From Colius striatus (taxonomy: Eukaryota > Chordata > Aves > Coliiformes > Coliidae), in the NCBI RefSeq assembly GCF_028858725.1, contig NC_084763.1, forward strand, positions 58,117,152-58,181,151: a stretch of 64,000 nucleotides of DNA, written 5' to 3'. Below the pieces are notes generated by a model, which saw only the letters and a list, made by a program, of their open reading frames with translations, ran no database searches and had not been told where the DNA came from. A program made the position numbers and the translations under genes. Below, one piece after another: positions 3,208 through 53,800 of this stretch; the stretch's first letter is position 1, and each line of letters opens with the position of its first letter.

Positions 3208-6200
3208 ATGGCCGCTCACCTGGTGCGACGCTGCTGCTGGAGGCATCTGGGGGCTTTCCTCTGCCCCTCCTCAGCCATCCCGGCCTCTCTGCTGGCCGGG
3301 AAGCTGGCCACGACAAGAAGAGCTCTGCCTCATCCACCTCTCTCTTCCTTTCACACCTCAAGCCCTTGGAGGTGGGCAGATGGCTTCTCAGTCAAAGAGC
3401 AGGTGGAAGAGAGTGGAAACGCTGAGTACAAGGTGATCGAGGAACTAATTGAGACAGCATCAACTCCTCACGAACTCTTGCAGCTGAGTGAGCTGCACTC
3501 TCTGAACAGCAACCAGGCCTCGCTGATCATCACTCAGCTTTCCCGGCTCACAGCAGAGAAAAAGCTGGAGGCAGGGAGCATTCTGCAGGATGGACGCTTC
3601 CAGCAGCTCATCAGCATCACAGACTCACAGGTGAGTTCCCTCCTTGCACAGAAAAGCTCTGGGGAAGGAAGATGAGATAGAAAGCAGCCAAGTGCTCCTG
3701 GGATTCGTAGAATCATATGGTCACTTTGGTTGGAAAAGACCTCTGAGCTGCTGCAGTCCCAGCCCTGCCCTCACCCTGCCACAGCCACCACTGACCCACG
3801 GCCCTCAGCACCTCAGCCCCACGGCTTTGGGATCCCTCCAGGGCTGGGCACTGCCCCAGCTCCCTGGGCAGCCTGGCACAGGGGCTGACACCCCTCTCAG
3901 GGAAACAGCTCTGCCTCAGCTCCAGCCTCAGCCTCCCCTGGGGCAACTCCAGCCCCTTTCCCCTTGTCCTGCCATTCATTCCTGGGGAGCTGAGACTGAC
4001 CCCCACCTCCCTACAGCCTCCCGTAGGGGAGTTGTAGAGAGGGCTTCAGCCAGCTGCTTGTGCAGGGTTTGTACTTTGGCATTCTAAGTGAAAAATGAAG
4101 TTGAGGAGATCAGGAATCGGGATGCTTGGTTATTTCCATCTAAGAATGCTGTTTCTTGGGCCACAGACAAAATGCCTTGGAGAGATCTTCCTCCTTAAGC
4201 ACTCCCTCATTCCTGCTCCCATGGGTTCTGGGATTTTTCACTCTGAATAAAGCTGCACCTTGGCCAGTTATTGGCAAGGACATGTTGTCTTCTTCCACAA
4301 TCTCTGCTCCCTAAAACCCCTGTGAGTGTAGTGAGAGAAGTGAGGCAGCGTGACCAAAGTGCAGGAACCTTCCAGGAGGGACGTGGGGAGGCGTTTTGAG
4401 GTTTAAGATGAGCAAACTTGCTGCAAACCCAATTATCCTTCTGCCACGAGCTGTTAGTGCAGCAGCAGCCTCCTGCTGAGGGTCAGGGGGGAGTTTACAG
4501 ATCTCAGGAGAGCTGTGAGACTGTTTGGTGCCATCAGGGAACTTGCTGAGGGTCCCTCTTGTCCCCTCATCCGGGTGGCTGATGAAGATGTTGAATCAGA
4601 CTGGCCTCAGAACCCATCCCTGTGGAACCCCACTGGCCTGATGTTGGGCCTGACTGGCAGCTGGGTGTTCCTGTCTGTTCTCTGATCAACACCTTTCCCT
4701 CTTGTCTCTGTGCTTCCCAGATTTCTCAGGTGTGGAATAACACCTTGGTGAACCTCCTGAAGAGCCTCTACTGCCTGGGCCTGGACAGCAGCAGCAGGGA
4801 GATGCAGTCGGTGGAGCAGGAGGTGCTGTGGCGGCTGCGGCGGCTCAGCTTCAGGCAGCTCAGCTCCCTGGCAGAGTTCCTGGCACCCAGGGAGAGCAAG
4901 GACAGCAAACTGCTCTCTGAGCTCATCAAGAAGCTGGAGCTGCGTTGGACGGAGCTGGAGGGCACCCGGAGCGTGGTGGCCATGATGGGCAAGGTCGGGC
5001 ACATCTCCCCGGCTCTCATGGACCGGCTGGAGGACAAGGTAGGGCTGGGGCTCTCCTGGCATAACACACCTAAAACCACAGGATCTCTGAATGCTTGAGG
5101 TTGGAAGGGGCCTTGAAGATCATCAAGTCCAGCCATTTCCTCAGCACTGCCACAGCCACCACTGGTCCTTAGCCCCACAGCTCCATGGCTTTGGGATCCC
5201 CCCATGGCCCTGGGCAGCTGGCACCCCTCTCAGGGAAGTTTTTCTCCATCTCCAGTCTAAACCTCCTCTGGGGCAACTTGAGGCTGTTTCCTCTCATCCT
5301 GTGGCTTGGGAGCAGAGACCAACACCCCTCTGGCTGCAGCCTCCTGTCAGGGAGCTGCAGAGAGTGCTGCTGTCTGCCCTCAGGCTCCTCTTCTCCAGGC
5401 TCAACACCCCCATTCCCTCAGCCCCTCCCCAGCCCCTTGTGCTCCAGCCCCTTCCCCAGCTCAGTGCCCGGCTCTGGCCACCATCACCCTGTGCCTGTCT
5501 GTACCAGCTGGGCTGGGCGGCTCTGAGGGGAGCTGAGACAAGGAGTGGCTGAGCCATGGCACCCGTTGGCTTCAAAGGGGGCTGACCTGTGCTGTGTGTG
5601 GCTGAGCAGATGTTTCTGACAGTGGCAGGCGCAGGGGATTGTCCTTTGGCTCACAGCTCCACACGAGCCCCGACTGCAGCTGCGTCAAATTCGCTCCTCG
5701 GCTGCCCGTGCTGGGGACCGGCCAAACAGCTGCCACAGCAACCACTGCAGCTCCTGAGCCCCACGTTCCCTTCACCCTGGGGCTAAGGAGATGCTGCAGA
5801 CAGAACCCTGGGGCTGGGTCACACCAGGTCAGCAGCTCAGACAGAGCCCAAACTAACCGTGTTGGGTTGGTGTAGGTTCAGAGGTAGGATTGTTCTAACT
5901 CACGGCCCTCAGCACCCACAGCTCCAGGGCTTTGGGATCCTTCCAGGGCTGGGCACTCCCCCAACTCCCTGGGCAGCCTGGCACAGGGGCTGACACCCCT
6001 CTCAGGGAAACAGTTCTGCCTCAGCTCCAGCCTCAACCTCCCCTGGGGCAACTCCAGCCCCTTTCCTCTTGTCCTGGCGCTTGGGAGAAGAGACCGACCC
6101 CCTGCCCCAGCCACAACCTCCTGTCAGGGAGTTGCCAAGAGCCAGAAGGTCTCCTCTGAGCCTCCTCTTCCCAAACCCTCCTTGGCAGGCTCTGGAGCTG

Positions 6201-9200: not shown

Positions 9201-12200
9201 GGCTGGTGAGAGCCAGGGGCTGGGACTCCAGCGGCCTCTTGGACCTGGGTTTGTGCCTGTGTGCAAGAGGGGAGAACAGAGACAGCAAAGGAGCTGTCTT
9301 CATCCTCTGAGCCTTCCTTGCAACCCCTCTGCCCCAGGGCTTTGGGCCTGAGCTCTGCTTCTGCCCCCCCAGGCGACCAGTCCCCCAAGGCTCAGAGCTT
9401 GTTGCTGAAGCTGATCCACATCAACGCCGCTGCGCACCTGGAGAGCCCCGGCTACAGGGGCCCGTTCCTGCCCACGGCAGCGCTGGGGGCCACGGCTCAG
9501 GTGGCAGGGGACAGGCTGACCCTGCTGCAGAGCAGCCTGAGAGAGGCCCTGGCCAGGCTGCTGGGGAGCCCCCAGCTCGGCCGCTTCAACGTCCGCACGC
9601 TCTACGGGTGGAATGTGGGTGAGTGGCGGCCTCCCCGCCCCCATCAGCACCCTGGGACCCTGGGTGGGCTCTGACAGCTGGGGGGAGTTGAATTGGAGGG
9701 TTGTAGGGGGCAGATGTGGGAGGAAAATACTGTGGAATCGTAGAATCAAGGAATTATGGTTGGAAAAGGCCTTGAAGATAATTAAGTGCCAGCCCTGCAC
9801 TCACCCTGCCACAGCCACCACTGACCCACGGCCCTCAGCACCTCAGCCCCACGGCTTTGGGATCCCTCCAGGGCTGGGCACTCCCCCAGCTCCCTGGGCA
9901 GCCTGGCACAGGGGTGACACCCCTCTCAGGGAAACAGTTCTGCCTCAGCTCCAGCCTCAGCCTCCCCTGGGGCAACTTGAATTTTCCTCTTGTGCTGTCA
10001 CTTGGGAGCAGAGATCAATCCCCCCAGCCACAGGCTCCTGTCAGGGAGCTGCAGAGAGTGCTGCTGTCCCCCTTCAGCCTCCTCTTCTCCAGGCTCAACA
10101 CCCTCATTCCCTCAGCCCCTCCCCAGCCCCTTGTGCTCCAGCCCCTTCCCCAGCTCTGTGCCCGGCTCTGGCCACGCTGCAGCCCCTCAGTGTCCCTGTG
10201 GCAGTGAGTGAGGGGCCCAGCACTGACACAGCCCTGGAGCTGCAGCCTCCCCAGGGCCCAGCACAGGGGGAAGGCCCCTCCTGCTGCCTGGCAGTGCAGG
10301 GGGTGGGGGGCAGCTCTGGGCTCTGCCCCTCGCAGCCCTGTCAAATTCGGCCCTGCCTGCCCCGTGGCAGGGACCGGCCCTCGGGCTGCCACAGCAACCG
10401 TGTGCTGCACGTGCCCCACGTCCCCTCCCCTGGGACACTGGGGGGTAAACGGCCACTGACACCTCTGCTGCCTCTTGGCCTGCACTGAGGAGGGGGAGGT
10501 GGTTTTGGGGGGCACCTGGGGTGTTGTGTGTGCAGCCAGGCCTCAGCAGTGCCTGTGTGCTCCCCCCTCTCCCTGCAGATGCCGAGGTGGTGGTGAACGG
10601 TGAGAACAAACCTCTGCCTGTGAAGGACTTTGCTGCTCCCCATCTGCTCTGCTCTGAAGGGACGAAGCCGCTGCCACCGGGTGCCAGGAGGTGGGTCTGG
10701 GCTCAGATGTGCCCCTCCAGGGAGGAGGAGGAAGGCCCTGCCTCCCCTGGGCTCCACACTTCAGCGTCTCCTGGCAGTGCCAGGGGCACTGTGCCCAGAG
10801 CCCCTCTCCCCTGGGGTGGGCAGAGGACAGGAACTGGGGCAGGGCTGTGCCAGGCCCCCAGGATAACACTGTGGAGCTCTGACCAGCCCAGCTGGTGGTG
10901 AGAGGGACAGACACTGGCCATGGCAATGGTTTCCTCTCCCAGAGAGCCAGTGCCAGGCCAGCCTGGGGGAGCCTGGGGCCAGACGGCTGCCGGGCCTGGG
11001 GCTGTGCATGAATTGGGCTCGAGAGGGCTCCAGCAGCCTAAAACCCAAACAGGCTCGGTTTGGAGGCGGCCCTCGGGCTGCAGGCTCCGCCTGAGCCCCC
11101 TCCCCTTCCCCCTCCCCTCGGCCAGGGTCGCGTTCCTGCGCTGGGAGTTCCCCAACTTCAGCAACCGGAGCAAGGAGCTGCTGGGGCGCTTCGCCATGGC
11201 GCGGCGGCACCTGCAGGCTGCCGGCTTCCTCGTGGTGGACGTGAGTAGCCGCGGGCAGGGGCTGCGGGAGGAGCAGGCGCCTGGGGAGGGGGGAACCCGC
11301 TCCCTCCTCACCCTTCTCACCCTCCTCACCCTCTCCCTGCTGCCTCAGCCCCGGATTAGCCGCCCTGACAGCGGGTACAGGGTGCCCGAGGGATCAGGAG
11401 TGGAGCCAGGGGCTCAGGGTGCTGATCCCTCCCCCCAGCCAGAGCCCGGCTCACGCATTAGTTGGCTGCCCGAGGTAATTATAGCTCTGCCCTCCTGCCT
11501 GGGGGAGGAGATCCGTGGCTTCTCCATGGCTGGAGGGCCACACGTCACCCCAGAGCAGTGTCACTGTCACCCTGCTTCTGCCCATGGGCCTTTCCCTCGG
11601 GGAGGGGGGATGTGTGTGTGTCCCTCCCGCAGCCCTGTGAAGTCGGAGGTTCCCCACGCTGTGTCTGCCAGCTGCTTTGGGATCTCCCCCCTCTCCCTGT
11701 GCTGGCTGGGGAGGTTCAGGGAAGGGAGACAGCAGCAGGAGGAGGAGGAGGAGGGACACATCACTTTCTGCAGCCTCAGCCTCCCAGGGTGTGTGGTGGG
11801 ATCCCCCCGGCTGAGGCTGAGCCCCAGCCCGGCTCCCGCAGCCACAAAGCAAGTGCCCGGCGCTGCAGCCTCTTCCCCCGGCTCCTGCCCGTGCCCACAT
11901 TTTCTCCCAGCGACTGTTTCGTTTCCCCCAGGCGCCGCTGAGGCTGCGGGGGGAGGCCGGGACAGGAGGGTCGGAGCGCTGCTCTCCTCCGCGGCTCGGG
12001 TGAAGCGGGGAGGGAGCGCTCCCGGGGCCCGGGGCGGGCGGGGGGGCTGCGCAGAGCCTCCAGCCCCTCCTCCCGACGCCGTCTCCTCCTCCCCGATCCC
12101 CTCAGGTTCCTCACTACGAGTTCCTGGAGCTGAAGCTGGAGCGGCAGCGGGTGTCGTACCTGCGGGACAAGCTGCACAAGGCCGTGGCCAAGGAGCTGGT

Positions 12201-15114: not shown

Positions 15115-21494
<6,380 letters not shown>

Positions 21495-21616
21495 CGGCCG
21501 GGAGCATCCTGGCCCCCCTCCCTGTATAGATGCACAGTTACTGCCCCTCCCCACCCTTCACCCCAAAACCTTCCTCTGTCCCCCCTCCATCCCCTTCCCC
21601 AGCGTCTGTAACGCTC

Positions 21617-21622
21617 AATAAA
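21617..21622 (+). terminator. NACAD: NACAD poly(A) signal
   Basis: A canonical AATAAA about 120 bases after the TAG stop, in 'gctcaataaacggcctc'. Cleavage is expected near 21635-21645. The gene ends tail to tail with CCM2. Confidence 0.9.
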
Positions 21623-21838
21623 CGGCCTCATGTATCACTTGGCTCGCACCCGGCCTCCCCTCGTGCTGACTTTGGGGGGACTCGCCCCCAGCCCCAGGTC
21701 CCATCGCTGGGCTGGGGGGGCTCAGGGCGTCCCGTCCTGGCAGTGGGGTGGGTGCAGGGGCTGTGATGGGCTTTGGGAGACACTCAGGAGTGTGCCATGG
21801 GGGAGGTTGGGGGGCAGCCCCTCGTTAATTTGGGGGTG

Positions 21839-21844
21839 TTTAAT
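21839..21844 (-). terminator. CCM2: Candidate CCM2 poly(A) signal (ATTAAA)
   Basis: On the minus strand the text reads ccATTAAAcacc, a common variant signal, about 810 bases past the CCM2 stop. No AATAAA occurs on this strand between here and the stop, though an ATTTAAA near 22440 is another weak option. If correct, the NACAD and CCM2 3' ends are only about 200 bases apart. Confidence 0.4.
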
Positions 21845-22655
21845 GGAGGCCAGTGCTGCTCCTTTCCTACAGCAGCTGGAGGATCCTCTTTGGGGTCAAA
21901 AGGGCTGTAGGGGGTGGATGTGGGGCCATGACCTGCTCCTGGGGACGAAAAGGGTCCTGCCAGAGGTGTGGGGTTGGTGCCTGGGCTGCACCATCCCCCT
22001 TCCAGCTCCTTCCTTCCTCCCCAAGTTGTGGCTCTGGGCTAATCAGGGACCCTCTCCCCCCAACCCCTTCTCAGGTGCCCCCTGCAATTGGCACCTCACC
22101 CTTGGGGATGTGGGGCAAAAACAGGGTGCACTTAGAACTGCGTGTAAAATATACACAGCAGGGATGTTGTGCCTCCAGGCTTCAGCAATGGGGTCCTGGG
22201 GGCCCAGGGAGACCTCCCCTATGGCTTTGGGGTGCCCTGGGTGTGGGAGGGGGGCTGCAGGGGGCTGGTCCTCGTGGTGTAGGCATGCAGGCCAGCTGTG
22301 TGCCCCCCACCTCACCTGGGCACCCCGTTATCAGGCAGGGAGGGGGCCAAGCCCCCTGGCCTCAGCCCCTCCGTGGCCTCAGCAGCTTCTCCTGCAGGGC
22401 TGGAGCCGAAACGTTCCCACAGCACGGAGCAAGAGGTTTAAATAATTCACATTGTGGTAAACTTCATTCAAAACCAGGGGCAGGAGGAGGAGAGCAGTTA
22501 CAGGAGGGGATCCCATGTGCAAAACTGTAAACCAGGCCCGGGGGCTGTAGCAGAGTCATCACAAACCCCCCCCCCAGCCTCTGCAAGGCTGAGCCCCTGC
22601 CCCAGGGTGGGAGGAGCAGCAGAGCGCTGCCCCCGCTGCTGCCGGGGCGCTGAGC

Positions 22656-44308
<21,653 letters not shown>

Positions 44309-45055
44309 GTCTCCGGCGGCGGCGGCGGCCCCGGCCCCCCCCGGGGCATCCCCGCAGCGGCCGTGCTCGCTCGGCCTCGGTGCGCGCCGGGACCCAGCAG
44401 CCCGGCCTCAGTGGCGGGCGGCGGCCATGGCCCGTCCCGCGCCGGGGCCGCGGCTCCCGCTCTCGTTCCCGCCCGGAGCCGCCTCACGGACACCAACAGC
44501 TTTTCAATCCTGCCGCCATCTTGGGCGGCGGCTTCCCGGCCTGCACCGCGCCGCGCCCTCCCCCGGAGCATGACGTCACTGCTCCCGCCGCGCATGCGGG
44601 AAGGCGATTGGCCACTCCCATCAGCCCGCCCCCGCCCCCTTGGAGATGCGGAACGCTATTGGCCGCGATTACCATCCCGGCCACGCCCCCCGCGGGGAGG
44701 CGGGATCCCATTGGCCCGCCCACGCTCACTCCCCGCCCATATAGGGCGGTGCTCTGTCGGCCGCGCCCACGGCTCGGTGCCGCTCCTGCGCATGCGCCGG
44801 CTCCTCCCGCGCTGTCCCCGGCGCTCGGCTGACGTCACGCGGCCTGGCCGTCGCGCCCTCAGCCATGGCGGCGCTTCCCGGTGCCATCCGCTTCCATCCG
44901 CTGCCATCCGCGGCCGGGGCTGCTCTCACGGAGCGAGGGAGGAGCAGAGGCTCTTCGGGGCAGCGTTGGCGAGGCGCCTTCCCCGCCATCGGGCCCCGCC
45001 GCCGCAGCCGTGAGGTGCCGTGGGGCTCGGTGCATGCTGGGAAGGGTAGTCCGCC
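44309..45055. promoter_or_regulatory. Two-way CpG-island promoter between CCM2 and the snoRNA host gene
   Basis: Dense CpG sequence between the divergent genes. It holds a YY1-type GCCGCCATCTTG at 44512-44523 and two perfect CRE palindromes TGACGTCA at 44571-44578 and 44830-44837. Three CCAAT boxes (as ATTGG) start at 44607, 44658 and 44710. There is a perfect NRF1 site TGCGCATGCGCC at 44787-44798 and, at about 45031-45050, a ZNF143/THAP11-like motif (gcatgctgggaagggtagtc). Such motifs are typical of housekeeping and snoRNA-host promoters. There is no convincing TATA box; 'catatagg' at 44739 is weak. Confidence 0.75.
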
Positions 45056-45297
45056 ATGGGCCTCGGGCGGGCGCTCGGGGCTTTCCGCGGGGGTGTCCCC
45101 GGGGGTACAGGGCTCGTGGAGACGGCTCTGTCGGGGAAGGGGACTCCGGGGGTCATCGGGGGGGTGATGAGGGTCTTTGGGTCGGGAGGCGCGGGGCGCT
45201 GAGGGTCCTCGGGGGCCGTGAAGGTCCCCGGGCGGAGCTGAGGTTCCATGGCGGGAGTGAGGATCCAGGGGAAGGGAGAGGGGCTGCACGTCCCCCT

Positions 45298-45422
45298 CAG
45301 CAAGTCTTCCAGCGTGGGGGGGCCTGCTGTGGCCCTCGCTATTCCTACAGCACTTGCCAGAGCAGCCCTGGGACGGTTTGAGGCCTCTCCCTGCCCTCAC
45401 CAGGGAGGGGTTATAGACATCC
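45298..45422 (+). ncRNA. H/ACA snoRNA copy A in host intron 1 (SNORA9-like by position)
   Basis: Hairpin 1 closes GCAAGU/ACUUGC, with an inner stem (GCG...GGG/CCC...CGC) and flanking single-stranded pocket segments. The H box AGAGCA is at 45359-45364 (ANANNA). A second stem is CCUCUCCCUG/CAGGGAGGGG. The ACA box is at 45417-45419, three bases from the end. Length 125 nt, about 100 nt before the next exon. Hairpin 1 is convincing, the lower stem of hairpin 2 less so. Confidence 0.65.
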
Positions 45423-45744
45423 CAGACACCTGGCTGATGAGGGCAACCCTGGAGACAACGCTGGCCAAGGCCAGCCAACTGCCCTCTCCTCCAGAGCTAC
45501 TGAAGCTTTCCCTCCTCTGTTGCAGCCTCTCACTCAGATGATCTAGAGATGTGGAAAGCTGCTGGGATGGAGGAGGCCTCGTTCTCATGTCTCCACATGC
45601 ATGTTTCTTCCTCAGAAGCAACACAGAAATGACACTGGCGGTAAGGGGAGATGAGGCTGAGGGTCTCTGGGTTGGGGGCTGTGTGTCCCCTGGGGGGGAT
45701 TGAGCATACCTGGGGTGGGGAGCAGGGGGCTATATGTCCTCCTC

Positions 45745-45868
45745 AGCAAGTCTTCCAGCGTGGGGGGGCCTGCTGTGGCCCCCACCATTCCTACAGCACT
45801 TGCCAGAGCAACCCTGGGATGGTTTGAGGCCTCTCCCAGCCCTCACTGGAGAGGGGTTGTATACATCC
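45745..45868 (+). ncRNA. H/ACA snoRNA copy B in host intron 2
   Basis: Same architecture: GCAAGU/ACUUGC outer stem, GUGGGGG/CCCCCAC inner stem, H box AGAGCA at 45805-45810, ACA at 45863-45865. In hairpin 2 the loop-closing pairs read CCCAG/CUGG instead of CCCUG/CAGG in copies A and C, a compensating change that keeps the stem. Confidence 0.65.
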
Positions 45869-46154
45869 CAGACATCCCCATGACCGGGGAGAGGCCCCCA
45901 GAGATGTTGCTGATGGGATAAGGCTGGCCAGCTGCCCCCTCCTCCAGTGCCACTGATGCTTTTCCTCCCTGGTTGCAGAGTTCCACTGAGATGAGAGACT
46001 CTCACTTTCTAGAGAAAGCTGCTGGGATGGAGAGGGCCTCATCTTCTCAGCTCCATACAGATGTTTCTTCCCCAGAGCCAACGCAGCAATCCTACTGGTG
46101 GTAAGGGGAGGTGGGGCTGAGGGTCTCTGGGTCAGGGGGCTGCATGTTCCCCTC

Positions 46155-46278
46155 AGCAAGTCTTCCAGCGTGGGGGGGCCTGCTGTGGCCCCCACCATTC
46201 CTACAGCACTTGCCAGAGCAACCCTGGGACGGTTTGAGGCCTCTCCCTGCCCTCTCCAGGGAGGGGTTATAGACATCC
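46155..46278 (+). ncRNA. H/ACA snoRNA copy C in host intron 3
   Basis: Outer stem GCAAGU/ACUUGC, inner stem GUGGGGG/CCCCCAC, H box AGAGCA at 46215-46220, ACA at 46273-46275. It resembles copy B in hairpin 1 and copy A in hairpin 2. It is about 110 nt before exon 4 of the host. Confidence 0.65.
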
Positions 46279-46789
46279 CAGACACCTGGATGACTCTGGG
46301 AGACCCTCAGAGACTGGGGAGGGTGGGCAGGGAGTGAACTGCCCCATTCTCCATACCTCTGACAACCTTCTTTCTCTTCCTGGTTGCAGGCTCCTGCTTG
46401 GGTGATGTGTTGGGATGGAGGAGGCCTCGTCTTCTCAGCCCGACTGGGGTGTCTCTTTCCTTGAGATGATGCAAAGATCGTGCTGGTGGTAAGAGTTGTG
46501 TCACACCTTGATATTAACCCTTCCCTCTTGGGATAGTGAAGCTGGGGACAAGCAGATGCAGCGAGGGGGTGGTGGCAGTCCCCAGGGATTCTGCCAAAAA
46601 CCCCTTGGGCCATCCCCAGCTTCATTAGTGCCATCATGCTCATCCTAATTGTTCCCCCCATTTCTTTTCCAGCCTCACACCACCATGGGGTTCCCCTCTC
46701 CACCAGTCCTCGCCTTGGTCTTCCCAGAGCTCCCAGTTATTCCCAAGGTTTTAACTGGGAATCCTGGAATGAGAACGGGTTTATTGATG

Positions 46790-46795
46790 AATAAA
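46790..46795 (+). terminator. Poly(A) signal of the snoRNA host gene
   Basis: Canonical AATAAA in 'gatgaataaatcatg', about 120 bases into the last exon, followed by T/G-rich sequence (gcctgtttttcccagtgggg). Confidence 0.8.
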
Positions 46796-46854
46796 TCATG
46801 CCTGTTTTTCCCAGTGGGGTTTTGGTACCGTGTGATAAAAGGGGGAAGGGACAT

Positions 46855-47690
46855 GTGTCATAGTACCATAGAATGGATGCTTAGAAATGATCCAGTGCCA
46901 CCCCATGCTACAGCAGCTTCCCCTGGCTCAGGGGGCACAGGAACACGTCCAGGTGGGTTGGGAACCCCCTGAGAAGGAGCCACCACACCCTCCCTGGGCA
47001 GCCTGGGCCAGGGCTCCCTCACCTCAGCACCAGAGGAGTTTCTTCTCCTGTGCCAGGGGCCCTGCCTGTGCCCGCTACCCCTTGTCCTGCCACTGGCCAC
47101 CACACACCAGCCCCATCCTTTAGGGATTGATCAGCATTGATAAGACCCCTCTCAGGCTTCTCTTCTCCAGGCTGAACAGCCCCAGTTCCCGCAGCCTTTC
47201 CTCCTCACACACATGTTCCATCCCCTCAGCACCCTGGGAGCCCTCACTGGCCTCTCTCCAGCAGTTCCCTGTCTCTCTGCAGCTGGGGAGCCCAGCACTG
47301 GGCACAGGGCTCCAGCTGAGGCCTCAGCAGGGCAGAGCAGAGGGGCAGCACACCCTCCCTGGCCCTGCTGCCCACACTCTGCTGGATGCCCCCAGGCTGC
47401 CATTGGCTTCTTGCCCACCAGCCCACACTGCTGCTCGTGTTTCTCTGCTGCCCACCAGCACTGCCAGGTCCCTCTCCTGGAGCTGCTCTCCAGCAGGTGC
47501 CCCCCAGCCTGTGCTGGGGCAGGGGCTTGTTCCTGCCCAGCTGCAGGACTCTGCCCTTGCCCTGGGTGACCCTCAGCAGGTTCCTGTGCCCAGCTCTCAC
47601 TGACTGGCAGCACAGACACTTGTGCTTCGGCCAGTTTGGTGCCAGCAGGGAGCTTGCTGAGGATGATGTTCCAGGGAATGTGGGCTGAGT
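46855..47690 (-). mobile_element. Long CR1 LINE fragment, antisense, just upstream of MYO1G
   Basis: From the reversed 3' end ('catagtaccatagaatggat') through 'ggggcacaggaacacgtcca', 'gctgaacagccccagttccc', 'tggcttcttgcccaccagcc' and 'ccagtttggtgccagcaggg' to about 47690. At about 830 bp it is the longest uninterrupted CR1 here, still without an intact frame. It ends about 145 bases before the MYO1G start codon. Confidence 0.88.
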
Positions 47691-47835
47691 CCCCACCCCA
47701 GAGATTTGGGTGTGCCGGGCCGTGCCCCACAGCCACCCCATGGGAGGTGCCGGTGCCGCCATCGCGCCTGCGCCGCGGGCCGTTGTGGGCGCAGGAAGCG
47801 GCGCGGGGGGAAGCGGGTGGGTGCCGGCGCTGGCG
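47691..47835 (+). promoter_or_regulatory. MYO1G: MYO1G core promoter / 5' UTR
   Basis: Only about 145 bases separate the CR1 from the start codon, and they are CpG-rich (catcgcgcctgcgccgcggg, ggaagcggcgcgggg). CCATTG-type or TATA motifs are not seen. 'aggaagcggcgcg' resembles an ETS/PU.1-class GGAA site, which would suit a leukocyte gene. The first exon may begin within this stretch. Confidence 0.45.
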
Positions 47836-50800
47836 ATGGCCGAGCTGGAGGGGCCCGAGTTTGGCAAAGCCGACTTCGTCCTGCTGGACGAGGTGACGAT
47901 GGAGCAGTTCCTGGAGAACCTGCGCCTGCGGTACGGGGCTGGGGGCGGCGGGGGGCAGGGGGCTCCCTGGGGCAGCACCCCGTGGGGTCGCCCCGCTTGA
48001 GCGGGCTGCCGGCGCTGCGCCCCGCGGCATCGCTGTGCCATGGGCGACGTGGCCTGGCGGGGACGGGGGCACCGGGGGGATGCGGAAGTGCCAGCAGCAA
48101 CCCCAGCTCGGCGGGAAGCATCTGGGCGGTGCCTGTGGGGGGAAACCGAGGCACAGGCACCCCCAGAGCGCTTTGGGGGGCTGTGGGGTGTGGGAGTCAC
48201 ACAGCCATGGGGCGGCTGCACACTCGTGGGGTTCCCCTGCTTCCTGTCCCCACGCTCGCGGGTGCTGCCCACAGGAAGAGCTGTTGCCCCACAGCCCAGC
48301 CCCATCCAGGGGTGCCAGCCGTGCCTGTGAGCCCGGTGCAGTGGTGCTGTGCCTCCTGGCACCCTGCCCCATGGTGTGGTGTCAGTGTCCTGCCCCGTGG
48401 TGTGGTACTCTGCAGGATGTGCTTCCTGCACCGGAGCTCAGCACCCTGCAGGGCATCACCTCACCCTACAGCATCTCATCCCACCCCAAAGCTCTGCACC
48501 CTGCAGGGCATCACCTCACCCTACAGCATCCAATCCCACCCCAAAGCTCTGCACCCTGCAGGGCATCACCTCACCCTACAGCATCTCATGCCACCCCATA
48601 GCTCTGCACCCTGCAGGGCATCACCTCACCCTACAGCATCCAATCCAACGCCATGCCTCAGCACCCTGCAGGGCATCACCTCACCCTACAGCATCTCATC
48701 CCACCCCATAGCTCAGCACCCTGCAGGGCATCACTCCACCCTACAGCATCCCAACCAACTTCATAGCTCAGTATATGAAGGGCATCACACCACCCCACAG
48801 TGTCCCATCCCACCCCATGCCTCAGCACCCTGCAGGGCATCATCCCACTCCACAGCACAGCACCCTACAGAGCGTAGGGTAGCATCCTGCCTCATGACCC
48901 AGCAGCCTGCAGGGTGCCGCCCTGCCCCACAGCACCATCCCACCCCATGCCCCAGCGCCCCGCAGGGTTCCCTCCTGCCCCAGCCCCCTGCAGGGTGCCC
49001 CCCAGCCCAGGGCAGCCCCCTCGGTGTGCGCAGGTTCTCTCAGGGCCGCATCTACACGTACATCGGGGAGGTGGTGGTGGCGGTGAACCCGTTCCGGGCG
49101 CTGGCGCTGTACGGTGCCGCGGCGGTGGAGCGCTACCGCGGGCGCGAGCTCTACGAGCGCCCGCCTCACCTCTTCGCCTTGGCCGACGCCGCCTACAAAG
49201 CCATGAAGCGCCGCGCCAAGGACACCTGCATCGTCATCTCGGGTAGGGACGCGGGCGGCCGGGGCTGGGGGTACCCGTGGCGGGGCCCCGGCTCAGCGCC
49301 CTGCCCTCCCTGCCAGGCGAGAGCGGCGCGGGCAAGACCGAGGCCAGCAAGTACATCATGCAGTACATCGCTGCCATCACCAACCCCACGCAGAGGGCAG
49401 AGGTGGAGAGGTGGGTCCGGCCCCACGGCGCGGGAGGGCATGCGCCCCGCTGACCTGCCCAGCCCTGGGGGGTCACTGGGAGGGCACCTGCGTGTCCTGA
49501 GCCTGTGGGGTGGGGGGTGGGAACCAGGGGTGACTGTGGGGCAATCCTGGGGTGCTCTGTGCCCCTAGAGAAAGTGTGGGGCAACCAAGGGGACACAGTG
49601 CTTGTGGGGTGACCCTGGGGTGCCCTGTGCCCTAGAGAAGGTGTAGGGCAACCAAGGAGCCACAGTACTTGTGGAGTGGTCCTGGGGTGCCCCTAGAGAA
49701 GGTGTGAGACAACCAAGGGGGCACAATACTTGTGGGGTGACCCTAGAGTGCCCCATGTCCCTAGAGAAGGTGTGAGACAACCAAGGGGGCACAATACTTG
49801 TGGGGTGACCCTAGAGTGCCCCATGTCCCTAGAGAAGGTGTGAGACAACCAAAGGGCCACAATAGCCGTGGAGTGGTCCTGGAGGTGCCCCATGCCTGTG
49901 GGGTGGGGTGGAGGGGACCAGGGTGCCCCATGCCCATAGTTTTGGTGTGGAGTAACCAGGGGTGTGCCATTCCTGTGGTGTGGTTCTGGGATGCCCCCAT
50001 GCCCAGAGGTATGGTGTGGGCGGCCCAGGGCGCCCCATGAGCCTGTGGGGTGGTGTGGGGGGACAAGGGGTGCCATACCATGCCCCCTTCCAGGGTGAAG
50101 AACGTGCTGCTCAAGTCCAACTGTGTCCTGGAGGCCTTTGGCAACGCCAAGACCAACCGCAACGACAACTCCAGCCGCTTTGGCAAGTACATGGACATCA
50201 ACTTCGACTTCAAGGGTGACCCCATGGGCGGCCACATCCACAACTACCTCCTGGAGAAGGTGTGGGGCGCTGTGGGTGGCGTGGCTGGCGGGTGGGTCTG
50301 AGGGGCACTGCCCAGCACTCACCCCCTGCTCCCACTTCCAGTCCCGGGTCCTCCAGCAGCAGCCGGGAGAGAGGAACTTCCACGCCTTCTACCAGGTGGC
50401 CAGGGGCTGGGATGGGATGGGATGGGATGGGGTGGGAAGGTTGGGATGAGGATGGGATTGATGGGATGGCTGGAATGGGGATGGTTGGGAAGGATGGGAT
50501 CTATGGGATGAGAAGGTTGGGGTGGGATGAATGAGTTGGGATGGATGGAATCTGTGGGGTGGGATGAAGGTGGGATAAGTGGGGTCTGTAGGGTGGAGTG
50601 GGATAGATGCAGTGGGTGGGATGAGAAGATTGGGATGGGAGGGATGAGATCTACAGGATGTGGTGGGGTGGATGGGGTGAGGATGGGATGAAAAGGTTGT
50701 GGTGGGGTGGCTGGGATGAGAGGGTTGGGGTGGAGTTTGGTGGGATCTGTGGGGTGGATGGGATGAGGATGAGGTGGGTGAGATGGGATGTGGGGGACAC

Positions 50801-53800
50801 AGCAGGGTGTGTTGGGGGGTGCTGCCAGGTGCCCTGACCCCCCAGGTGTGCTGACCCCATCCCCAGCTGCTGCGGGGAGCCCCGGCGGCACTGCTGAGCG
50901 CCCTGCGCCTGCGCCCCGACCCCGGCGCCTACCGCTACACCCAGGAGGGGGCCCAGGGCGTGAGTGGGGCTGGGGGGGCTGGAGGGGGCTGGGAGGTGGG
51001 CAGGGGGAGCTCAGCCCCTCATGCCCCTCACCCTGGCCCCAGGCCTGTGGGGAGGACGCAGCCGGCTACCAGGCAGTGGAGGAGGCGCTGGCCATCATCG
51101 GCTTCTCCCCGGAGGAGGTGGGCTCCCTGCGCCGCGTCCTGGCCACCGTCCTGCACCTGGTGAGACTCCCTCCCAGTATGGACCCCCACACCAGAATGGA
51201 TCCCCTTGCACCAGTACAGGCCCCCCTGCCCCAGTACGGCCCCCCACATCAGTACGGCTGCCCCCCTACCAGTACGGCCCTCCCAAACATCAGTACAACC
51301 CTCCCACACCAGTATGGCCCCAGACGGACCAGTATGGCCCTTGGCAAATCAGTATGTCCCCCCCAGGCCAGCATGCTCCCCCCTCCCCAGTACAACACAC
51401 CTGGGCAAACCAGTACAGCCCCATCCAGACATACATGGCCCTGCACTGCCCAGTACAGACCAGTAGGAATAGGTAATGACCAGTTCATACCTGTGCAATG
51501 CTGCAGAAACCAGTACAGCCCAGCACAAACCAGTATGGCCCAATGCAAACCAATACAGCTCATTACAAACCAGTGTGGCCCAGTACAAACCAGTACAGCC
51601 CAGCACAAACCAGTGTGGCCCAATGCAAACCAATTCAACTCATTACAAACCAGTACAGCCCAGCACAAACCGGTATGGCCCAATGCAAACCAATTCAGCT
51701 CATTACAAACCAATGTGGCCCAATACAAACCAGTACAGCCCAGCACAAACCAGTATGGCCCAATGCAAACCAGTACAGCCCAGCACAAACCAGTATGGCC
51801 CAATGCAAACCAGTACAGCCAAGTACAAACCAGTATAGCCCATTACAAACCAGCTCAGCCCAGAATGGCCTAGTACAGCCCTGTCTGGCCCACTACATCC
51901 CAGTACAAACCAGTAAAGCCCTGTCTGCCCCGGGGTGGGGGCTGGAGCAGGGTGGATGCTCTCGGTGCCCCCTCCTCACCCAGCGCCGCCGCAGGGCAAC
52001 GTGGTGTTTGTGGCGGAGGGCGAGGCGGCGGCGCTGGAGGAGGCAGGGCAGGAGGAGCCCACGGGGCAGGTGGGCACAGGGCAGGTGGGCACGCTGGCAG
52101 AGCTGACAGCCACGGCCCCGGAGGAGCTGCGCCAGGCCCTGCTGAGCCGCACCGTGGCGGCGGGCGGAGGGGAGCTCATCCAGAGGGGACACAGCCCCCG
52201 GGAGGCCGCCTACGCCCGCGATGCCTGCGCCAAGGTAGGGAGGGGGACACGGGCTGGTGGGAGTGGGGGGGGGGAGGAGGTGTGTGCCCCCCACCCACAG
52301 CACCTTTGGGTGCCCACCCTGTCCCCGTCCCAGGCCATCTACGAGCGGCTCTTCTGCTGGATCGTGGGGCGCATCAATGCCAGCATGGCCCCCCGCGGGC
52401 ACGACCCGCGCCGGCACGGCAAGGGCACCGTCATCGGCGTCCTCGACATCTACGGCTTTGAGATCTTCCAGACCAACAGGTGACCCAGACCAGGGAGGGG
52501 ACCTGGGCTCGCTGGGAGCTGGGGGACACCTGGGAGGGACATGGCTTGGGAGTGAGCGCCCAGGAGGGACACGGGGAGAGGACAGGACTCAGGAGGGACA
52601 GAGAGGTGGCAGGACCCCAGAGAGAGACACGGAGGGGACAGGGCCCAAGAGGGATACAGGGAAGGGACAGGGCTTGGGAGGGACATGAGGAGGGGACAGG
52701 GGTTGGGAGGGACATGAGGAGGTAATAGGATGGGACAGGGGTTGGGGAGATGTATGGGAGGAGTGAGGGTGCAGGAGGGAGACAAGGAGGGGACAGGACA
52801 TGGAAGAGACACGTAGAGGGAACAGGAGTTGGAGGGATGTGTGGGGGGAATAAGGGCCCAGGAGAGACATTGTGGGGAGACAGGGCCCAGGAGGGACACA
52901 TGGAGGTGGCAGCACCTCAGAGGGACATGGGGAAGGAGCAAGGCCCAGAAAGGACACATGGAGATGGCAGGGGACAAGACCAGGAGGGACCCTCAGAGGG
53001 ACAGTGCCCATGAGGGATGGCATCGACCATGCTGTGCCAGGGGGCTGGGTGGCAGTGTCTGTCCTGACCCCCTGCCCACAGCTTCGAGCAGTTCTGCATC
53101 AACTACTGCAACGAGAAGCTGCAGCAGCTCTTCATCGAGCTCATCCTGCGGCAGGAGCAGGCGGAGTACCAGCGGGAGGGCATCGCCTGGCAGAACGTGA
53201 GGGGATGGGGAGGATGGGGGGCATCGCCTGGCAGAGTGTGAGGGGATGGGGAGGATGGGGGGCACCGCCTGGCAGAGTGTGAGGGGATGGGGAGGATGAG
53301 GGGCATCGCCTGGCAGTGTGTGAGGAGATGGGGAGGATGAGGGGCATCGCCTGGCAGAGTGTGAGGGGATGGGGAGGATGGGGGGCATTGCCTGGCAGAG
53401 TGTGAGGGGATGGGGAGGATGAGGGGCATCGCCTGGCAGAGTGTGAGGGGATGGGGAGGATGGGGGGCATCACCTGTCAGAGTGTGAGGGGATGGGGAGG
53501 ATGGGGGGCATTGCCTGGCAGAGTGTGAGGGGATGGGGAGGATGAGGGGCATTGCCTGGCAGAGTGTGAGGGGATGGGGAGGATGAGGGGCATCGCCTGC
53601 AGAGCTTGAGGGGATGGAGGGACATGGAAGGGACACAGGGGCATCACCTGGAAGAGCATGAGGGGATGGAGGGGGATGAGGAGACATGGGGGGAAATGGG
53701 GGATGTTGCTTGGTAGAGTGTGAGGAGATGGGGGTCGGGGGGACATTGCCTGGCAGAGCACGTGGGACACAGCAGGGACATGAAGGGTTACTCCTCAGTG

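Follow-up and report, generated by a model that had tools for sequence, protein, structure and literature searches.

Three tandem SNORA9 copies in predicted introns of a likely SNHG15 orthologue in Colius striatus

The box H/ACA RNA SNORA9 (ACA9; Rfam family RF00411) has been catalogued in chicken. The 2009 catalogue, which used the galGal3 assembly, lists it as GGgACA31, with one isoform that is intronic in transcript CR391354 (PMC2653536). There, chicken ACA9 is assigned to 28S-1618 by hairpin 1 (yeast snR43) and to 28S-1701 by hairpin 2 (snR33). In horse, the SNORA9 sites are given as U1683 and U1782 (PMC12288042). Human SNORA9 is described as lying in intron 2 of SNHG15, a non-coding gene of five exons (PMC6480895). 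For chicken, duplication within genes has been put forward as a main path of snoRNA expansion (PMC2653536).

Here, we describe a locus of Colius striatus in a 64,000-nucleotide stretch of DNA (the window). Between CCM2, on the minus strand, and a myosin gene, on the plus strand, it has three tandem modules, each an intron and an exon. We think it very probable that this is the bird SNHG15 orthologue, a host gene of RNA polymerase II in which an exon and its snoRNA-bearing intron were twice duplicated in tandem, giving three SNORA9 RNAs that would guide modification of two 28S uridines.

All three RNAs are on the plus strand. Copy A, in intron 1 of the predicted gene, is at 45298..45431 (H box AGAGCA 45359-45364, ACA 45426-45428). 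Copy B, in intron 2, is at 45744..45877 (H box 45805-45810, ACA 45872-45874) and copy C, in intron 3, is at 46154..46287 (H box 46215-46220, ACA 46282-46284). Against RF00411, which has a cut-off of 85 bits, the copies score 125.0, 112.8 and 127.7 bits, respectively; copy C is the highest. Each match spans model positions 1-133. By these matches the RNAs are assigned to SNORA9. A sequence-only reading of this DNA had left the choice between SNORA9 and a new H/ACA family to an Rfam search. The new family is ruled out because all three copies match RF00411 over its full length and above the cut-off. The same reading had placed the RNA starts within 1 nt of ours, at spacings of 447 and 410 (here 446 and 410). 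Its RNA ends, at 45422, 45868 and 46278, fall just short of the ACA boxes (starts at 45426, 45872 and 46282). What it had described as kept, namely the GCAAGU/ACUUGC stem, the AGAGCA hinge and the ACA, is identical across the copies. Each RNA has the box H/ACA order of hairpin, hinge, hairpin and tail, with an ANANNA hinge and an ACA 3 nt from the presumed 3' end. Each RNA sits in a 158-nt direct repeat. The three repeats are at 45280, 45726 and 46136, and the second and third are 87% and 95% identical to the first. Additional repeats in the window extend over the exons.

Compared with dinucleotide shuffles, each of the RNAs has the better fold, with z scores of -2.5 (A), -3.5 (B) and -4.2 (C). 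Shuffles that folded as well as the RNA numbered 3/200, 0/200 and 0/200, respectively. For copy A, the two-hairpin fold is 0.1 kcal/mol above the best fold, which is a different one. In copies A and C, the hairpin-2 guide arms pair with each other in the best naked-RNA fold. Of the 28 family pairs, all are standard in A and C, and 27 are in B. A two-sided compensatory change had been proposed for hairpin 2 of copy B. Read in the register of the family, it is instead an A x G in place of U-A, together with a second pair that changes from G-C to G-U, and pairing is restored only by a one-base slide with a bulged A. In that register we reject the compensatory pair, and the proposed change is a register slip.

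The pockets were compared with 28S rRNA from the same assembly. A cattle 28S stretch from PMC1325260 served as query and returned two assembly stretches, L007 and L008; for the second site, the surrounding 28S sequence had initially been taken from a primer in PMC3691250. Both stretches end within 28S, and the scan is confined to this part of 28S. Both target sites are present in L007 and in L008, 81 bases apart. Every U was scored, 349 in L008 (1,072 N) and 326 in L007 from base 1357, with pocket boundaries supplied from the fold and offsets of 0-2 and 0-3 bases allowed. For hairpin 1, the expected site ranks first with all three copies (1/349 in L008, with 5+4 pairs, and 1/326 in L007, with 5+5). 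For hairpin 2 of A and C, the expected site ranks second in both stretches, with 7+4 pairs, and an adjacent U outscores it by one point. For hairpin 2 of B, the expected site ranks first in both, with a lower score (20, versus 24 in A and C) and 7+3 pairs, one of them a G-U in the shorter arm. The search for pocket complementarity that the sequence-only reading had suggested finds both reported 28S sites at rank 1 or 2 in every copy.

The two 28S stretches differ at 1553, beside the hairpin-1 target, where L007 has CTTAGGAT and L008 has CTCAGGAT. The CTTAGGAT version pairs with one more guide base than CTCAGGAT.

The 3' guide arm of copy B is changed at two positions. Copy B probably guides the hairpin-2 site less well, because it forms fewer pairs and has a lower hairpin-2 score. 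One copy therefore appears, from its guide sequence, to be losing part of its guiding ability. An incipient division of work among the copies is a reading that we regard as doubtful. In it, B would be on its way to serving the hairpin-1 site alone and A and C would still serve both, with the outcome that guide dosage would no longer be equal at the two 28S sites.

The RNAs differ from one another far less than the intron and exon sequence after them. Within the RNA, the differences are 13/134 (A-B), 5/134 (A-C) and 10/134 (B-C), or 4-10%. In the intron after the RNA together with the exon, they are 64/209, 71/188 and 69/196, or 31-38%. With sites taken as independent, in one MAFFT alignment with gap columns dropped, the Fisher p value for this contrast is at most 5e-6. 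In the intron before the RNA, 36/91 (A-B), 12/45 (A-C) and 6/48 (B-C) sites differ, and with this segment included p is at most 7e-8. For B-C, the pre-RNA intron alone has no significant excess over the RNA (p 0.37), and so this pair gives no contrast there. The earlier statement that the exons are much less alike than the RNAs agrees with the multiple alignment (61-69% versus 90-96%). Jukes-Cantor distances for the post-RNA intron and exon are 0.39 (A-B), 0.53 (A-C) and 0.48 (B-C); judged by these distances, the duplication is old. B and C are identical throughout hairpin 1, and a single site separates A from C in hairpin 2. Copy C looks nearest to the ancestor in this comparison, which is confined to the three copies.

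Gene conversion, too, could keep the RNAs alike. If so, only C, perhaps with A, would make a working RNA, and B, perhaps also A, would be decaying, their likeness owed to conversion and not to selection. The identity of B and C over hairpin 1 and the single A-C difference in hairpin 2 form a mosaic that conversion would also yield. B and C are also alike directly upstream of the RNA, at 42/48 sites. In addition, B breaks one family pair, has a shifted upper helix and carries the two guide-arm changes. Against this, B retains both boxes (H and ACA), 27/28 pairs and the guide strands of hairpin 1, and the hairpin-1 changes in copy A leave all 28 family pairs standard. Moreover, the 158-nt repeat is bounded near the RNA ends (18 nt before and 6 nt after copy A), and such boundaries are more readily expected from selection. 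We consider decay of this kind possible but unlikely.

We now turn to the host gene. Over 44860-46815 there are 12 donor-like and 23 acceptor-like sites, and sites recurring in register were chosen. TTGCAG acceptors that end at 45525, 45978 and 46389, with GTAAG donors at 45641, 46101 and 46489, delimit predicted exons 2 (45526..45640), 3 (45979..46100) and 4 (46390..46488), which belong to modules 1, 2 and 3, respectively, all on the plus strand. Exon 3 resembles both of the others; exon 2 is 75% identical to it over 85 nt and exon 4 70% over 81 nt. A further acceptor, ending at 46672, precedes the predicted last exon (46673..46815, plus strand), which contains AATAAA at 46790-46795 and has a presumed 3' end. 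Intron 4, before the last exon, has no Rfam match, SNORA9 included, at E up to 1. The start site and the first exon probably lie within 44860..45104 on the plus strand, where candidate donors include GTGAGG at 45010 and GTACAG at 45105, among others. Between these two donors, at 45032..45050 on the minus strand, is a promoter motif that we take to be ZNF143/SBS-like. It fits the typed pattern with 0 mismatches; the pattern was typed after the sequence had been seen, and 6/100 shuffles match it at ≤2 mismatches. Open reading frames of at least 50 aa that overlap 44860-46900 number 25, both strands counted.

A block of ~30 nt (TGCTGGGATGGAGGAGGCCTCGT...) at 45560, 46020 and 46408 is among the best-kept parts of exons 2-4, and might be a splicing signal. 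A sequence that we take to be CR1-like, at 46850-47400, starts just beyond the host gene's polyadenylation signal.

The neighbours were identified by domain scans of reading frames. On the CCM2 side, Malcavernin and CCM2_C matches lie at 16000-30400 on the minus strand, and minus-strand frames over 30000-44330 have no CCM2 match. A 10-residue peptide encoded on the minus strand at 44279-44308, upstream of the host gene, is presumably the CCM2 N-terminus. Downstream, a plus-strand gene has Myosin_head and TH1 matches (two of the three plus-strand frames scanned), and by human gene order we assume it to be MYO1G. Human SNHG15 is, we take it, flanked by CCM2 and MYO1G. The locus thus has the position between CCM2 and the presumed MYO1G, and it has SNORA9 in an intron. 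The three-module gene is most likely the SNHG15 orthologue because human SNORA9 sits in intron 2 of SNHG15. A gene of non-coding type at the SNHG15 position had already been proposed, and the Malcavernin, Myosin_head/TH1 and SNORA9 matches agree with that position.

The repeated units, and a neighbourhood with what we assume is CR1, would suit a transposable element that happens to carry an H/ACA RNA. The searches for dispersed copies point the other way. In the assembly of 1,212,370,026 bases, SNORA9 occurs at least three times, all at this locus (the best 42 of 86,483 candidates were scored). The exon module 45860-46160 is found at two places among the matches listed in the assembly, itself and module 1, and exons 2-4 match one another only (64-kb window, E up to 0.01). 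With SNORA9 and the exon module placed here alone, among the matches listed, a dispersed element is disfavoured, and we regard it as highly improbable. For a relic of a fourth SNORA9, there was no further Rfam match in 40000-52000 (E up to 1) and, beyond the three copies, no blastn match to copy C in the window (E up to 0.01). What the sequence-only reading had proposed stands for the three modules with H/ACA RNAs, the SNHG15 position and, within the assembly searches, the lack of dispersal, and falls for the compensatory pair in copy B.

A match in a viral collection (L001) to a 20-mer of the RNA 5' end was set aside as chance or unrelated. L001 had no Rfam match (E up to 0.1), and blastn did not match it to the window (1e-5). 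A 28S pattern search of viral contigs returned nothing.

The age of the three-module gene can be read in a second way. The gene could date from the bird ancestor or earlier, with the single copies of human and chicken due to later losses or assembly gaps. Such an age would suit the 31-38% difference in the post-RNA intron and exon, and also the five exons of human SNHG15, with SNORA9 in intron 2 (PMC6480895), beside five predicted exons here. The chicken count is based on galGal3 (PMC2653536), and snoRNA copies outside mammals have been argued to be underestimated, in a passage that does not name SNORA9 (PMC3349704). Conversely, chicken SNORA9 is listed with one isoform (PMC2653536), and a survey of 48 birds, in the section concerned, reports other RNA classes without unexpected expansion, except SNORD93 (PMC4378963). 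We judge so old a gene to be on the unlikely side. A single ancestral unit fits the one chicken isoform, though the chicken assembly is an early one (PMC2653536).

We favour a single unit that was duplicated within the SNHG15 orthologue. Tandem duplication would have taken place twice, in an order that we presume. RNA polymerase II would transcribe the host gene and the introns would be spliced out; each spliced intron would then be trimmed to an RNA of ~133 nt that binds the H/ACA proteins dyskerin, NOP10, NHP2 and GAR1. The RNA would guide pseudouridylation of U1683 by hairpin 1 and of U1782 by hairpin 2 (horse numbering, PMC12288042). Copies A and C would retain both guides, and B would retain the hairpin-1 guide with a weakened hairpin-2 3' guide arm.

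The window also contains SNORA5. Two copies, at 5675-5805 and 10331-10464 on the plus strand, score 66.8 and 54.5 bits (cut-off 30). The region has exons that encode FAST_1 and FAST_2, together with a RAP match that stays under its cut-off, which is the pattern to be expected for TBRG4. Human TBRG4 carries three SNORA5. In the assembly, SNORA5 occurs at least twice, both in this window (the best 46 of 89,413 candidates were scored).

The identity of the RNAs is settled as SNORA9, and the locus lends itself to tests of how snoRNA copy number changes within a single host gene, since the assembly also contains both target sites in readable form. Among the titles and abstract openings listed in the literature searches, there was no report of a tripled SNORA9, and so the tripling itself may be unreported. 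The duplication is of an ordinary kind, and this type of event is already described for birds. With SNORA9 as defined by RF00411, the Colius striatus RNAs share the full-length match, the boxes, the two pockets and the two reported 28S sites; they differ in being three tandem copies, of which B carries an altered 3' guide arm. In comparison with chicken GGgACA31, the target sites are the same and the RNA is intronic in both, whereas the catalogue lists one isoform in chicken and Colius striatus has three copies. Human SNHG15 has five exons, as predicted here, and SNORA9 is intronic in both genes, in intron 2 in human (PMC6480895) and in three successive introns in Colius striatus. Finally, as in the intragenic (cis) duplication of snoRNAs described in chicken, the copies occupy neighbouring introns of one host, and there is no difference in kind (PMC2653536).
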